A DNA stretch of 64,000 nt from Liolophura sinensis (taxonomy: Eukaryota; Mollusca; Polyplacophora; Chitonida; Chitonidae), in the NCBI RefSeq assembly GCF_032854445.1, contig NC_088300.1, positions 72,578,984 through 72,642,983 of the forward strand, read 5' to 3'. The notes under the pieces are model-generated. The model ran no database searches and was not told the origin of the DNA. It was given only the letters and a program-made list of their open reading frames with translations. Positions 12,201 through 59,937 of this stretch are shown in pieces (the stretch's first letter is position 1; every line of letters starts with the position of its first letter). Position numbers and translations under genes: made by a program.

Positions 12201-15200
12201 ATGGTGTACAGTTTAGTGTACAGTATGGCATAGTATAGTATAGTATACAGTATAGTATATAGTATAGTATATGGTATAGTAGAGGGCCTGCGTAGCTCAG
12301 TTGGTTAGCGCGCTAGCGCAGCGTAGTTGACGCAGAAGACTCTCACCAATGTGGTCGCTGTGAGTCCAGCCCATACTGGCTTCCTCTCCGGCCGTACGTG
12401 GGAAGGTCATTCAGCCACCAGCGGGTATGGCGTAAAACACCAATCAATTAAATATAGTATAGTATGGTATATTGTAAACTACAGTATGTGGTATGGTGTA
12501 GTATGGTGTACCTAGGGGTTTTCCCTATCTACCACCCATGTAGCGTTCACCCCGCAGTGTCCTGTGCTTAGAGCGCGGACTCAGAGACACGGCTCTTCCC
12601 GACTCCGATACGTTTTGATCCCAGTATACTACTGTCAGAATATGATTGTGTTTCAGGGCCTTTAAGACCAAGTATCACTGCAGTATAACTCCAGGATCAA
12701 AATCAATTTCCTCTCAACTCCAGTGAAGCCCCAATATGCAATGCAAGGTCGATGCGAATGAATGGCCGATGTCAGCCAAGATTGAATTATTTTGCCGATT
12801 TGGCATTAATCCATTCGTTCTATGCAGATAAAATTTTAATATATGCCAGATGCGTGTCTGGAATAAACGTATGATACGAACCTAATGCTGGCCAATAATA
12901 ATGCACGTCCAAGGTCAAGGTTGCCATGATATCAGAGCTCTCCCAATGCGAATGTTTCAGTATATATAGGTATTCACAGCGCAGAAAAGTGTTCCATCCA
13001 TACTTCATAACTTTCTATTCTAGGCGATTCTTAGCAGCATTCTTACATTGCAATATGTACCGTAGTCCACTTTAACCCAGACCCAAGGTGTGGGCATGGA
13101 AGAATACTACTACCAATCGCCTAGAATAGAAAGTTATGTCTTTCAAAAACACATATGGAGTGTACCAACCAGTTTGTCTCTCTTTTCCTTTCAGAGCCAT
13201 GATCACTCAGTCTGCATTCGTCCGCCATTACAACCTTACAGCGTACAGCCTCAGACGGCTACTTTCAAACTATCAGGCAGTTTTGTAAGTGTGGGCGCGC
13301 TCAGAATGTTTTTGTGCTCAATACTCAGTAAGATAAGTATGCCTGAAGAATATATGCCATAGTTAGATAAGCTGTGATAAATGAAGTATTTTAGTGTTGG
13401 TAAGGGACGAGGGCTGGGACTCTGACTTTTCACATTTTCATCTTTTCAAAAGTTTCAAAAGTAAATTATAACGTAAAAATACACTTCGAAAGTTCCTAAC
13501 ACTTTGATTTAACGTTGATTTAGGGACCCATGTATCTTATATAATGTTTATATATGAAAACCTTACATACATATCAAATCTTTTTGTTATAGATGTTTGT
13601 CACTCAGATAGCATTAGTATTTTGCTTTTATTCTTATACGTTTGAACTTATAGCTGATGATCACATATATTTGTAAACTAAGCAATATATCAGAATAAAC
13701 AGATGAGAAAAGATAATTCGTAATAACGATTTGTTGCTATCTAAGTAGCAGATGATTTCGTGAAAAGGTTTTTTTTATATTTTATTTATATCGCTCAAAC
13801 AGGCACAACTAAGGTCACTGAATGTGTGGTTTACCGAAACTTTGCTTTTGACGGAAGCGACAGCGTCCTTTTCCAGCAAAACATCCAGTTGATGTGAGTA
13901 ACCATGTATAGACATATTTATTATTTCTCCATTTGCCTAACTATTTGTTGATATTTTTTTGATATTTAACATTTTAAGAGTGGGGTATTTTTATATCAAT
14001 GTACAACGAGTTAAAAGAACAATACCGAAGTCCATACCAGCATACCGCTGTATACAGCTGTTCGGCTAACGTATTTATTTATTTGATCGGTGTCTTATGC
14101 CGCACTCAAGAATTTTTCACTTATATGACGGTGGCCAGCATTATGTGGGATGAAACCGGCCAGAGCTTGGAGGAAGCCCACGACCATCCGCATGTTGCTG
14201 ACAGACCTTCCCACATATAGCCGGAAAGGAAGTAAGCATTGGTGCTCCTGAGTCACATCACCGCGCTGGCGTGCTCACCAGCTCGGACACGGAGGTCGCT
14301 TTTCTAATGTAAGATAGAGTGTGTCTGTAGTAGGTAATTTTTGAGTTTCCTCTCCATATAGGTAACTAATAGCACAATAACACTATCTCTGGGAGTGGAT
14401 GAGATGTACACATTGACCACGGTATCTACTGGACAGAAAGGCACTGCGCCCAACCCCTTGCCGTCCAAGCCCTTCCCTCTGCCCTATAAAGATGACTTTG
14501 AAGGTACATTGCTGTGTCACGCATAATGTTGGCGTTGATCATTGAGATGTTTCACAACGCAGCAATGCTTAATAGTTTATTTATTTATTTATTTATTTGA
14601 TTGGTGTTTTACGCCGTACTTAAGAATATTTCACTCATACGACGGCGGCCAGCATTATGGTTGGTGGAAACCAGACACAGCCCGGGGGAAACCCACGACC
14701 ATCCGCAGTTTGCTGGAGGGACCTTCCCACGTACGGCCGGAGAGGAAGCCAGCATGAGCTGGACTTGAACTCACAGCGACCGCATTGGTCAGAGGCTCCT
14801 GGGTCATTACGCTGCGCTAGCGTGCTAACCAACTGAGCCTCGGAGGCCCCTTTAATGGTTTTAGAGTAGTTAATTATTCGTGTTTAAGGCTTTTATTTAC
14901 GCATTATTCAAACCTATAAATGTGATCTATGACGGCAATCTAAATGGTGTTCTTCAATTATCCTTTTTATATCTGAAGTCGCAAAGATTGCCCAAGTGAC
15001 GTATATCCAGAATCATTCATTCCTTCATTTATTGCTTCCTTTCATAACGTAAATATGTTTTGATATGTATTCGGTCATTGCGTCAAAGACGAAACAGGCC
15101 TAGATGGCATAAAAAAGGAGAACGAGTATAAACGAATTTCAGAAATAAACGGAACGAAGGAAATGATCAGCTGAATAATGAAGTACATTTCATGAAAGAT

Positions 15201-18200
15201 AAGGCATCGGTTTAACTGTATTTTATGGGATGATGCTCATAGCCAGGGGGGATAACTCTAATCGCAATAACTGCACTTCTTTTTGCCAATCACATTGCCA
15301 TTACATTCCGTGCTTTTACCCTCCGTCATGTATAGCTTACCCGGCCCATACGGAACCGTACAACCTGGCCCAGCAGAAAGGAGTGTGGGAGGTAATAGAC
15401 CTGGGTGCGCCCCGGGGTAAAGTCATTCGGCAGATGATGGCAGAACTGCCCGTGTATTGGTGTATGCATGGTCCTCAGCATCTACCCCATACAGTCAGCG
15501 TCATTGGCAGTACTAACTGGTAACAATTATTGTCACCTACGTCATCTATGCACGGTCCTCAGCACATAGCCCACACAGTCAGAGTCATTGGCAGTACTAA
15601 CTGGTAACAATTATTGTCACCTACGTCATCTATGCATTGTCCTCAGCAAACCTCACACAATCAGCGTCACTGGCAGTACTAACTGGTAACAATTATTGTC
15701 ACCTACGTCATCTATGCACTGTCCTCAGCAAACCTCACACAATCAGCGTCATTGGCAGTACTAATTGGTAACAATTATTGTCACCTATGTCATCTATGCA
15801 TGGTCCTCAGAACCTACATTGAGCGACATTAGCAGTACTAAATGGTAACAATTATTGTCACTTATGTCATCTATGCACGGTCCTCAGCACATAGCCCACA
15901 CAGTCAGGGTCACTGGCGGTACTAACTGGTAACAATTATTTTCACTTATGTCATCTATGCACTGTCCTCAGCACCTATCCCATACATTCAGCGTCATTGG
16001 CAGTACTAACTGGTAACAATTATTGTCACCTATGTCATCTATGCACTGTCCTCAGCACATAGTCCACACAGTCAGAGTCATTAGCAGTACTAACTGGTAA
16101 CAATTATTGTCACTTATGTCATCTATGCATTGTCCTCAGCACCTACCCCATACAGTCAGCGTCATTGGCAGTACTAACTAGTAACAATTATTGTCACCTA
16201 TGTCATATATGTACGGCCCTTAGCACCTACCCCATACATTCAGCGACATTAGCAGTACTAATTGGTAACAATTATTGTCACCTATGTCATCTATGCACGG
16301 TCCTCAGCACCTACCTCACACATTCAGCGTCATTGGCAGTACTAACTGGTAACAATTATTGTCACCTATGTCATCTATGCACGGTCCTCAGCGCATAGCC
16401 CACATAGTCAGAGTCATTGGCAGTACTAACTGGTAACAATTATTGTCACCTTTGTCATTTATGCACTGTCACCAGCACCTACCTCACACATTTAGCCTCA
16501 TTGGCAGTACTAACAGGTGACAATTACTGTCACTTTTGTCATCTATGCAAGGTCCTCAGCACATAGCCCACACAGTCAGAGTCATTGGCAATACTGACTG
16601 GTAACAATTATTGTCACTTTTGTCATCTATGCACGGTCCTCAGCACCTACCTCACACATTCAGCGTCATTGGCAGTACTAACTGGTAACAATTATTGTCA
16701 CTTTTGTCATCTATGTACGATCCTCAGCACCTGTCCCATACAGTCAGCGTCATTAGCAGTACTAACTAGTAACAATTATTGTCACCTATGTCATCTATGC
16801 ATGGTCCTCAGCACCTACCTCACACAGTCAGCGTCACTGGCAGTTCTAATTGGTAACAATTGCTGTCATCTTTGTCACCCATGCACTGTCCTCAGCACCA
16901 ACCCCATGCTGTGAACGTCATTGGCAGTACTAACTGATAGCAATTACTGTCACCTTTCTCATCTATGCATGGTCCTCAGCACCTACCCCATACAAGCAGC
17001 GTCATTGGCAGTACTAATTGGTAACAATTACTGTCACCTTTGTCACTCATACACTGTCCTCAGCACATAGCCCACACAGTCAGCCTCATTGGCAGTACTA
17101 ACTGGTAACAATTACTGTCATCATTGTCAGCCATGCGTGATCCTCAGTACCTACCCCACACAGTCAGCCTCATTGGCAGTACTAAGCGGTACCAATTACT
17201 GTCACCTTTCTCACAGGTTTCTTTATCATTGGTCTAATGGTTTATATTCGAAAACTTAGACTAATATCGAACCTTCTGCCCGACTGAATTATATCGGATA
17301 CCTTTTGTTTTACACCAGCAATGCTGCTGGAGTGTATGTGACATCTTAGGTAAATGGCGAATGTGTATCGGTACTCTGCTTCCCTTTGTATTCCAGGCCA
17401 CGCAGGGCGGGTATTTACGTTAAAGTGGAGGCCCGGGGGAGAGGGTAAATGGTACCTGTACCGATGAAGTGTACAAATGTGGCCTGAAGGCTAGATAAAT
17501 ATGGGTGTACTGCCTGTCGGATATATATGACATTCCCCTTTGCATTCCATTTCAGGACGGATATTTATGTTGAGGTGGAGGCCCGGGTAGGGGCTGTGAA
17601 CGGCACAGACGGAGTGTTCGTGGCCGCTCGGATTGACAACGGAGGATGCAACGTGAGCTATGCACTCGGCTATTATTTTGTCATCTACCCTTCAAAACAG
17701 CAATACCAGCTGACACACGATATTAGTAAGTCATGAGTTCTTACGTGTATATTGTTTTGAGCCGTCCCCTTTCTCAGTTATATGGGGCACGTGTCGTGAA
17801 TATTTCAAATAAAGGCTAAAATTAAAACGATTTGGCACATTTTCCCATATAAAAGGCGTTTGTATAAGGCCGCATATAACGTTATGTAGTTTTTTTACTT
17901 GCTGGTATAGTTCTTTAAATAAATATTTTATATTAGTAATAGCAATGTCGATGGGCTCATAGAATATCACATAACGCTTTATATATCATTATATTAGCAA
18001 TAACAAACTTCTCCGTGCTTCACAGAATATCACGTAACGCTTTATATATCATTATATGCGCAATAATAAACTCCTCCGTGCTTCAAAGAATATCACATTA
18101 CGCTTCGTATATCATTATATTAGCAATAACAAACTTCTCCGTGCTTCACAGAATATCACGTAACGTTTTATATATCATTATATGAGCAATAAATAAACTT

Positions 18201-43456: not shown

Positions 43457-44335
43457 TGTCATAAAGGGTCAAATCACTTTTACTACAACTGTAGTCCAGA
43501 CGCTTGCCACCATTGTCATGTAGGGTAATGTCAACTTCACTTCCATGGTAGCCCAGACGCTTGCCCTCATTGTCATATCGGACCAAGTCTCCTTCACTAC
43601 CACTGTACTCTAAACGCTAGGCTCCATTGTCATATCGAGCCAAGTCTCCTTCACTACCACTGTACTCTAAACGCTTGGCTCCATTGTCATATAGGGACAA
43701 GTCTCCATCACTGCCAGTGTACTCAAGATGCCTGGCGCCATTGTCATATTGGGTAAAGTCTCCATCAGGTCTTCTTCACTACCTGTGTACTCTAAACGCT
43801 TGGCTCCATTGCCATATAGGGTCAAGTCTCCTTCATTAGCACTGTGGCCCAGACGCTTGCCGACATTGTCATGCAGGGTCATGTCAACTTCACTACCTTT
43901 GTACTCTAGACGCTTGGCGCCATTGTCATATACTGTCAAGTCTCCATCACTACCACTGTAGCCCGGACGCTTGGCGCCATTGTCATAAAGGGTCAAATCT
44001 CCATCACTACCACTGTAGTCCAGATGTTTGCCGCCAATGTCATATAGGGTCAAGTCACCTTCATTACCAATGTCGTCCAGAGGTTTGCCCTCATTGTCAT
44101 GTTGGGCCAAGTCTCCTTCACTACCACTGTACTCTAAACGCTTGGCTCCATTGTCATATAGGGTCAAATCTCCATCACTACGACTGTAGTCCAGATGTTT
44201 GCCGCCAATGTCATATAGGGTCAAGCCACCTTCATTACCAAAGGCTTGCCCTCATTGTCATATAGCGTCAAGTCTCCTTCATTTACACTACCAATGTAGT
44301 CCAGACGCTTGGCGCCATTGTCATAGTGTCATGCC
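43457..44335 (-). repeat. 57-bp minisatellite with a 19-residue open repeat on the minus strand
   Basis: About 14-15 units of 57 bp, marked on the plus strand by 'cgcttggctccattgtcata'. On the minus strand 43770-44224 stays open through about eight units as diverged 19-residue repeats of the form LTLYDNGAKRLEYSGSEGD. Variants such as IGGKHLDYSGSDGD recur, suggesting higher-order units. The frame breaks at an indel near 43765 and again near 44240, and a stop replaces Lys near 43617. It may be non-coding with a fortuitously open frame, or a remnant of a repeat-rich coding exon. Confidence 0.85.
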
Positions 44336-44479: not shown

Positions 44480-44800
44480 CACTGTCAAACACGTCTGGTC
44501 AAGCGGGTTGACCAGATCTTTATCACAAAAGTGCAAGAATCGCCAAATTTCTAACTCTGAAGAAGGGATTCTCTCTCGGGAAAAATAAGCACACATGGTC
44601 TCCTAACATAGGTATTGTAACGCTTCTAGAGCAACAGCGACAAAAATACTGTACCCCATATGTTGTTTGAACAGACACTGAACTGCAGATGGAGACTGTG
44701 TACTGTGTTGAAATTCTATATTTTCATAAATGGCAGGGCCTTTATTGGTGTCAGTCTAAGTAATTTGCTGGGTTTTTTTTATTGCAGTGAAAAGCCGAGC
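44480..44800 (+). promoter_or_regulatory. 5' flank/5' UTR of the TRIM-like gene (block gamma, copy 4)
   Basis: Conserved with 31606-31972 and 42240-42510. The block ends in 'ttttttttattgcag' (44765-44787), a splice-acceptor-like tract just before ATG 44806. This suggests a 5' UTR intron and a first coding exon starting near 44788. Transcription start not located. Confidence 0.45.
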
Positions 44801-44805
44801 GTATA

Positions 44806-45469
44806 ATGGCTGAAAGCAAGAAAAATCGTGAAAACACCCTTACATGTCCGATATGTATGGAAACATTCCAGAAACCAGTAACGTTACCTTGTCAGCACAG
44901 TTTTTGCAGGGAGTGTATTGGTGTGTATGCTGACAAGTCTAAACCTGGACAGACAGATGAATCCTGCAGCACGGGGAGTGAGGGTATTCACCAGCTGATC
45001 TCATGCCCTGTATGCCGGACATCAACCGATATTGGGAGGGAAGGTATTGCTGGTTTGCCTCCCAACTTTCATCCGGCAGAAATTGTGGAGAAGTTCTCTT
45101 CTGCTGTTAAGGTTGAGGATGACATCCCATATTGCTCTTTGTGTGAGGATGATATTCAGGTTAAAGCTGTCAAGTTTTGTACCGACTGTTCTTTACTGTA
45201 CTGTAAAGACTGGCTGATTTCTCTTCATCCCATGAGGGGGGCTATGAAACGTCACGGACTGATTTCGTCCGTGGAGTACCTCGCCCAGGAAACCACACAG
45301 CGACAGGTCAGCAGGATGAACAACCAAGTCAGCAGCCGTCATGCGCCAGAAACGGTCAGTCACTCAGCTTGTATTGTGAACCGTGTCAGATGGTGATTTG
45401 TATGAGGTGTGTGGTTGAACATTCGGGACACGCTATGCGAGATGTACAATATGCAGCTGAGAAAGACAA
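44806..45469 (+). pseudogene. TRIM-like RING and B-box exon, frame-broken
   Basis: Starts MAESKKNRENTLTCPICMET. The RING has CPIC, CQHSFCREC and CPVC in C3HC4 order, so a ubiquitin-ligase-type RING. B-box 1 follows (YCSLC...FCTDC...YCKDW), but the expected last Cys is Trp. The ATG frame ends at 45396 before B-box 2. B-box 2 is readable in another plus frame (45322-45469, LSLYCEPCQMVICMRCVVEH then SGH). A frame change therefore lies between about 45235 and 45330, and the usual C-x2-H start reads CARN. The exon would end AAEKDK at AAG/GCAAGA, a possible GC-AG donor. Best read as a recently damaged gene, or one with an assembly indel. Whole gene expected as RING-B-box-coiled coil-B30.2 to 56225. 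Confidence 0.8.
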
Positions 45470-58404: not shown

Positions 58405-59937
58405 TACTATCCAAAAAAAGAAACGCATAACCCGGTTTTTTGCGGAGGTGATGCAGTCTTTTCAATTATGCATAACTAAATAAGAATTGCTATTCTGCAA
58501 ATATTTTTTTACACAGATTAAGGAAGGGTCCATATCTAGACAACAAGGCCATCAACTTGAGGTAAGACACTCACAATGAGTCTCCCACTTGAGTGGAATG
58601 TCAGTATCTGTTGTGACCACCACGGGCACGAATAACAGTTCTGACACGCCTTGTCATGGACTGGATGAGACGCTGGATAGAGGCCTGGGGAATGTTCTGC
58701 CACTCCTCCTGCAAACATGCAACTTGCTCTTGAAGCGTTTGGGGTTGAGGTTGACGTTGGCGTAGACGTCGATCAAGTTCATCCCACAGATGCTCAATTG
58801 GGTTAAGATCCGGGGAACGGGACGGCCAGGGTAGCACATTTACATTGTTTTCGGCGAGGAAGTCCCTTGTGACACGTGCCGTGTGCGGTCTGGCGTTGTC
58901 CTGCTGGAACAACTCCCGCTGAACGTCAATGACAGGTAAGAGGTGTGGCTGCAGGATGGTGTCTCGGTAGCGTACGGCCGTAAGATTTCCCTGAACGTGG
59001 ACAAGATTTGTACGACCAGTATACGATGTTGCTGCCCACATCATCACACTCCCTCCACCAAATCTGTCCACTTGGCGTACGCAGTTAGGGGCATAACGTT
59101 CGTGAGCACGTCTGTAAACCCGGTTTTTACCATCACGTCTCTGCAATAGGAATCTGGACTCATCACTGAACCAAATGCGTCGCCAGTTGCGTAGATTCCA
59201 TGCAGTCACGTTGTTACACCATCGGAGGCGATTGGCGCGATGGTGAGGACGCAGCACGATCCCAACATAGGGCCTCCTGGCTCTCAGTCCATGTTCCCTC
59301 AGCCTGTTCCGCACTGGTTGACCTGATATCCTCCTCAGTCCCGGTATGCTGGCTGCTGTGCTTTCAGGTGTAGCACAACGGTCACGCAAATGGAGGACCC
59401 TTATGTAGCGATCTTGGGCTGCTGTAGTGACACGTGGTCGACCTGAACGCCGACGGTCATTTGTTGTCCCAGTATTGTTGTAGCGGGCAGCAAGCCGTGA
59501 AATCGTGCTCTGGCTAACGTGTAGACGCCTAGAAATGGACGATTGGGACTCTCCAGCTTGAAGTCTTCCAATGGCAATATTTCTTGTGACAGTGTCAAGA
59601 CGTGGCATGTTGAATCAGCTTGAAAACACCACTTGAAAGACGCCGATTTCCGGCCCGAAGTTGCGGTTTTATAGTCACACACTGCATGCTTTCCATGCGT
59701 AAGTTCGGCGTGTAAGACTGCACGTGATGCAGTGTGGTGCTGTATTTTTTACTTCTTCCAAAAACAGCCTCCAAACTCAACATTTTCAACCAAGAAATGT
59801 TTTGAGGAATAAAATGTGTGCTAACTGTGACTATTAACAATATTAAAACACATTTTGCTCATGAAATGGAGACAAAATGTATTTATTTCATTTTAAAATA
59901 AAACAAAACACCTATGCGTTTCTTTTTTTGGATAGTA
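58405..59937 (-). mobile_element. Tc1-like DNA transposon, complete
   Basis: Flanked by perfect 23-bp inverted repeats (ctatccaaaaaaagaaacgc then ata; left 58407-58429, right 59913-59935) bordered by TA. About 1.53 kb with one intact transposase ORF on the minus strand. Length, TIRs, TA target site and DD34E transposase agree. There is no sign of decay. Confidence 0.93.
58601..59608 (-). CDS. Tc1-family transposase (DD34E), intact
   Basis: 335 residues, full length for the family. The N-terminal region has paired helix-turn-helix segments (about residues 1-110; first part ISRRLHVSQSTISRLAARYN, then a GRPR-type motif). The catalytic core has Asp in WFSDESRF (~150), Asp in FQQDNARPHTA and Glu in NPIEHLWDE, with 34 residues between the last two. 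It cuts at the TIRs and inserts at TA. No frameshift or stop, so it may be active or recently so. Confidence 0.95.
   Translation of the reverse strand: MPRLDTVTRNIAIGRLQAGESQSSISRRLHVSQSTISRLAARYNNTGTTNDRRRSGRPRVTTAAQDRYIRVLHLRDRCATPESTAASIPGLRRISGQPVRNRLREHGLRARRPYVGIVLRPHHRANRLRWCNNVTAWNLRNWRRIWFSDESRFLLQRRDGKNRVYRRAHERYAPNCVRQVDRFGGGSVMMWAATSYTGRTNLVHVQGNLTAVRYRDTILQPHLLPVIDVQRELFQQDNARPHTARVTRDFLAENNVNVLPWPSRSPDLNPIEHLWDELDRRLRQRQPQPQTLQEQVACLQEEWQNIPQASIQRLIQSMTRRVRTVIRARGGHNRY

Follow-up and report, generated by a model that had tools for sequence, protein, structure and literature searches.

In the 64,000-nt stretch of Liolophura sinensis DNA analysed here (the window), the junction between exon 15 and intron 15 of a GALC-family gene is continued by a minisatellite of 21 units (15463-17214, plus strand, as are the exons and splice sites of this gene), each of about 84 bp with 57 exon-like and 27 intron-like bases. 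Comparisons among the units and with paralogous genes indicate that the array grew out of the exon 15 junction, the exon coming first and the array later. The donor at 15520 is thus followed by a long series of copies of itself, and we consider it probable that this exon-proximal donor wins by exon definition, the decoys being passive leftovers of a junction-born array.

The array was defined by TRF, segmentation and unit comparison. TRF called it at 15463-17207 with a period of 84, 20.9 copies and a score of 2354, the top score among the 52 rows for the window, while segmentation carried it to 17214 as head-to-tail units of 77 to 85 bp, 15 of the 21 being exactly 84 bp and the edges of the last three units being arbitrary. 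Unit 1 (15463-15546) takes in the final 57 nt of exon 15 followed by 27 intronic nt. The initial annotation had described an array of about 20 copies of this junction, which our results confirm; its unit make-up of about 58 bp of exon and 26 bp of intron stands as to composition, and the lengths are corrected to 57 and 27. The self-alignment that it had proposed found exon 15 sequence common to the units, with a mean identity of 0.859 over all unit pairs. No two units are identical (the closest pair reaches 97.6%), a divergence that does not suggest a recently churning array or very recent turnover. Unit identity plotted against lag peaks at lag 6 (0.880; P = 0.027 after the maximum over ten lags), and units 2, 6, 8, 12, 14 and 20 are of the CATAG type; this modest higher-order structure suggests that the array grew by multi-unit blocks. 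In the unit tree, unit 1 was placed, with low support, inside rather than outside the other units, with the consequence that turnover of the array may leave its mark on the protein. When 15462-15700 was used as a DNA query against the assembly, it gave 10 matches, every one within the array.

The expected true donor of intron 15, CTG/GTAACA with its GT at 15520 (15520-15528), was scored by a PWM derived from 52 junctions of five genes, with five doubtful junctions dropped by eye and intron 15 left out. Its score of 6.38 lies at the 29th percentile of the 52 gene-family donors. Unit-by-unit scoring of the downstream copies (15604-17190) found a GT in 19 of 20 units, at 15604, 15686, 15768, 15845, 15929, 16013, 16097, 16181, 16265 and 16349 and then at 16433, 16517, 16601, 16685, 16769, 16853, 17021, 17105 and 17189, the GT of unit 18 (16937) being lost. 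The exact 9-mer CTG/GTAACA is kept in 10 of the 20, and 16 score above the 10th percentile of the family donors (5.06). The donor of unit 5 (6.65) exceeds the true one, those of units 9 and 16 are weak (3.03) and that of unit 21 is bad (-1.73). These counts agree with the "ctggtaac" copies that the initial annotation had noticed in most downstream units. Because the decoys score like the true donor, local sequence does not mark out the true site. The units are contiguous with a real exon and their copies keep usable-looking donors, as in splice-donor minisatellites of the CBS and IFI6 kind.

Use of a decoy would lengthen exon 15 from the 184 nt obtained with 15520 to between 268 and 1,853 nt. 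When the reading frame was computed donor by donor, each of the 20 downstream units, if used, retained TGG-TAA and ended the frame in ...GSTNW-stop, just as the initial annotation had predicted an NW-stop for decoy use. A leak to any decoy would then yield this one truncated frame, an expected target of nonsense-mediated decay, so the array would cost little beyond some lost mRNA.

The host gene was assigned from its exons. Upstream exons match PF02057, and the joined peptide of exon 15 (15336-15519) and exon 16 (17556-17725) aligns to mouse GALC (4ccc, 3zr5) through the junction with an E value of 1.2e-8, a homology that places the gene in the GALC (glycoside hydrolase 59) family. The array lies in intron 15, which is 2,036 nt long, and the intron before exon 15 measures 832 nt. 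PF02057 and peptide searches found seven GALC-family genes in the genome, window copy included: C5 carries two intronless copies and C6 five multi-exon copies, the window gene among them. A 128-bp tract across the exon 16 acceptor (17521-17648), which takes in the first part of exon 16, is 93% identical to paralog B, and this sharing suggests gene conversion. Elsewhere in the window lie, on the minus strand, an open frame of 19-residue repeats encoded by a 57-bp array with a weak Pfam match to DUF4097 (43667-44251) and a 337-aa Tc-like transposase open frame matching Pfam DDE_3 and HTH_Tnp_Tc3_2 (58601-59614). A 201-aa open frame with RING finger matches lies at 44791-45396.

The order of events can be read from the paralogs. 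Exon 15 ends in ...VSVIGSTNW in the window copy, ...VNVIGNFNW in paralog B, ...LNIIGSPNW in C and ...INVIGNYLW in D; the equivalent exon end is present in E, as seen from DNA comparison, and that of the C5 copies is ...LNVIGSVEW. The starts of intron 15 in the paralogs differ in sequence from that of the window copy. TRF on the four fetched paralog regions (B, C, D and E) found no such array in intron 15, the repeats of paralog B there being an (AT)41 run and a 16-bp repeat of 1.9 copies, and BLASTN of 15300-18000 against the four paralogs at an E value of 0.01 gave no match from within the downstream array. Since the exon end occurs without the array in four paralogs that have the intron and in both intronless copies, the exon came first. 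The derivation of the array from the exon 15 junction, proposed earlier, is therefore upheld both by the exon sequence shared among units and by the paralogs; the opposite case, an array older than the exon, is contradicted by paralogous introns that have the exon and no array. A tandem duplication with breakpoints flanking the exon 15 donor converted the junction to an 84-bp minisatellite of 21 units.

Across the spans covered for the five GALC genes, 5.6% consists of arrays with a period of at least 20. The idea that arrays are attracted to junctions was rejected, as one of 11 such arrays overlaps any of 112 junctions compared with 3.2 expected (P of at most one = 0.08 under random placement, for a junction list that is incomplete). 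Junction arrays in a minisatellite-rich genome are thus not surprising as accidents, and are if anything rarer than chance. Paralog D has a 38-bp minisatellite of 6.4 copies (L008 1018-1267) that stops 14 nt upstream of the exon 15 acceptor and lies beside the opposite end of the same exon.

Whether the decoys are maintained was assessed by counting parsimony changes over units 2 to 21. For the donor 9-mer 13 changes were counted where 11.1 were expected (P = 0.74 for a count as low), and for the 15-nt block TACTAACTG/GTAACA 15 where 18.6 were expected; neither is better conserved than the remainder of the unit, and selection on the decoy donors was rejected. A 19-bp near-palindrome, GGTAACAATTATTGTCACC, which starts at the last exon base of the unit, has 15 changes compared with 23.6 expected (P = 0.06), the third-lowest count of 84 circular blocks, and this deficit hints, weakly, at more than pure passivity. 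In the exon-like part, the mean changes at codon positions 1 to 3 are 1.79, 0.95 and 1.42, without the third-position excess of a coding sequence, and the decoys as coding exons were likewise rejected. An RNA structure hiding the decoys found no favor either, because a two-unit stretch is less stably folded than its shuffles (z = 1.49), with 188 of 200 shuffled sequences at least as stable. TACTAAC, the yeast branch-point consensus, stands just before the donor in 14 of 21 units, compared with two occurrences in the rest of the window, and in nine of these 14 the next AG lies 46 nt past it. However, just three of the 21 unit acceptors exceed the 10th percentile of leave-one-out acceptor scores, and the view of each unit as a micro-exon was kept as no more than a curiosity.

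How the correct donor is chosen had been raised as a real question; for exon-defined exons a published answer exists, and its extension to the present decoys goes by analogy. In the part of Carranza, Shenasa and Hertel 2022 that was accessible (PMC9225289), long flanking introns with near-equal donors lead to preference for the upstream donor, minigenes in which two donors are identical and the introns are 365 nt long use the upstream one exclusively, and alternatives giving exons over 250 nt are disfavoured. If these human minigene rules carry over to the window gene, the first donor would be paired across the 184-nt exon 15 with the exon's own acceptor, and in an exon-defined competition among identical donors the one nearest the upstream acceptor would win; the first decoy would already give a 268-nt exon and later ones up to 1,853 nt. 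The downstream copies would then persist as passive leftovers. Against this exon-definition account, the true donor reaches just the 29th percentile, and the same excerpt describes exon skipping upon weakening of duplicate donors in larger constructs (PMC9225289), so that leak or skipping may occur here as well. An intron-centred proximity rule, reported there for short introns (PMC9225289), would favor the last copies.

The competing explanations differ in what they ask of the gene. One holds that decoys are often used, with U1 spread over about 17 comparable donors, stop-containing mRNA formed and output lowered with copy number. The identical 9-mer in 10 of 20 decoys, the one decoy that outscores the true donor and the same truncated frame from all 20 would fit such a situation, and the effect of copy number can be likened to the CBS VNTR association. 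Yet exon-defined identical donors favor the upstream copy (PMC9225289, in its accessible part), and the exons downstream of the array have stayed constrained: in exons 16 to 18 the window copy is changed at one of 15 sites where the other genes agree, and over its first 27 codons exon 16 shows four synonymous changes relative to paralog B and no amino-acid change. Because the units (0.859) are more diverged than the 93% tract shared with paralog B, constraint on exon 16 probably persisted once the array had arisen, small as these numbers are, and this means that, during some of the recent past at least, it was important for the exons to be joined correctly. We therefore regard frequent decoy use as unlikely, although worth keeping in view. 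An origin of the array as an error of assembly, or as a satellite inserted there with no relation to the exon, is extremely improbable. Assembly errors do occur here, as contig C99 (L020, G000) contains seven COX1 matches about 15.5 kb apart, a concatemer of mitochondrial copies; but a collapsed or stuttered assembly should contain identical units, whereas no two are identical here, unit 1 is coding sequence with homologues in the paralogs and mouse GALC, and no copy was found elsewhere in the genome by the assembly search.

A further explanation is that the window gene is a recently broken paralog, in which the array is tolerated since splicing no longer matters. Its exon 13 (13803-13893) is 91 nt long, one more than in paralogs B, C and D (90 nt), its conserved peptide pieces fall in different frames, and the frame would be broken if the exon were included; six other GALC-family genes are also present in the genome. 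On the other hand, there are no stops in 522 aligned codons of the exons other than exon 13, and at sites where five other genes agree the window copy is changed at 12 of 197, exactly as is paralog B (12 of 197), the corresponding counts being 14 of 199 for C, 9 of 194 for D, 5 of 190 for E and 27 of 212 for C5a. By this measure the coding constraint on the window copy equals that on paralog B. In B and C both ends of exon 13 are in phase 0, which means that a transcript lacking it would stay in frame, and a base-call error in the assembly could also account for the extra nucleotide; exon skipping, recent loss or a sequencing error may each apply. Given exon 13, full constraint on the window gene may no longer be in force, and we judge the broken-paralog explanation to be quite unlikely.

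Besides the donor copies, intron 15 contains an incomplete duplicate of the beginning of exon 16. The segment 17382-17437 is 77% identical to the exon 16 acceptor and exon start, and splice-site PWM scores together with this alignment point to 17397-17444 as a candidate 48-nt exon that would preserve the reading frame. Its acceptor, with the AG ending at 17396, scores 9.89, compared with 7.90 for the true acceptor and a leave-one-out median of 8.04 for 52 acceptors, and is good partly because it was inherited from the copied exon 16 acceptor. Its donor (GT at 17445), chosen after a scan of 12 GTs, scores 10.15 against a leave-one-out 75th percentile of 8.45, and both sites outscore their counterparts at the flanking exons. 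In paralog B no convincing equivalent was found, the weak alignments there scoring 38 and 35 where shuffled sequences reached up to 29 and 38, respectively. Intron 15 could accordingly be imagined as a splicing switch made from copies of both its ends, with 20 donors leading to the common truncated form and a 48-nt cassette exon at the other end, a suggestion that we find very doubtful. If it were true, cassette inclusion would duplicate the first strand of the exon 16 domain, and array length and cassette inclusion would govern how much of this GALC copy is made and in which form.

Whichever explanation holds, the array amounts to a natural, extreme duplicate-donor experiment, in which a real donor is followed by 10 identical 9-mers at a spacing of about 84 nt. 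If the first donor alone is used, exon definition overrides a twentyfold competition; if later donors are also used, copy number tunes output. The array further shows how the end of a coding exon can join a minisatellite.

Splice-donor arrays are already known in human, in CBS and IFI6, and the array in the window has a longer unit. A literature search, with most subscription papers outside its reach, found no report of this GALC array. Lievers et al. 2001 reportedly concerns reduced CBS activity, and Turri et al. 1995 is said to describe an IFI6 (6-16, G1P3) minisatellite that supplies several donor sites for splicing. The human CBS VNTR, c.1444_1467+7(16_21), repeats 24 nt of exon and 7 nt of intron 16 to 21 times and is polymorphic (PMC2630376, accessible part), and this 31-bp VNTR is tabulated with raised homocysteine in the available portion of PMC1395315. 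It resembles the window array in that an exon-intron donor junction has been turned into about 20 donors (PMC2630376, PMC1395315, as excerpted). However, the CBS unit is described as invariably 31 bp (PMC2630376, same part), compared with about 84 bp (77 to 85) here, and its length polymorphism was measured in human whereas the window array is known from one assembly.

IFI6 is similar in that a minisatellite supplies multiple donor sites within one transcript (PMC4526556, in the section available). There, two downstream repeat units act as donors and give three mRNA species (PMC4526556, same section), while the downstream units of the window array are known from sequence alone; in the window array, unlike IFI6, all 20 extended forms meet a stop codon after the exon. 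Human segmental duplications have been surveyed for internal tandem repeats at their exon-intron boundaries, with 27 intron modifications reported in the accessible text of PMC2812944. These repeats share with the window array minisatellite variation across such boundaries that alters splicing there; their units average 30 bp in four copies and are mostly retained or spliced as new introns (PMC2812944, same text). On the acceptor side, CBS 844ins68, a 68-bp duplication of an intron-exon junction of which one of the two copies is strongly preferred (PMC2630376, as excerpted), is comparable to the partial exon 16 copy in intron 15 and, as a single duplication at intron 7/exon 8, differs from the donor array described here.
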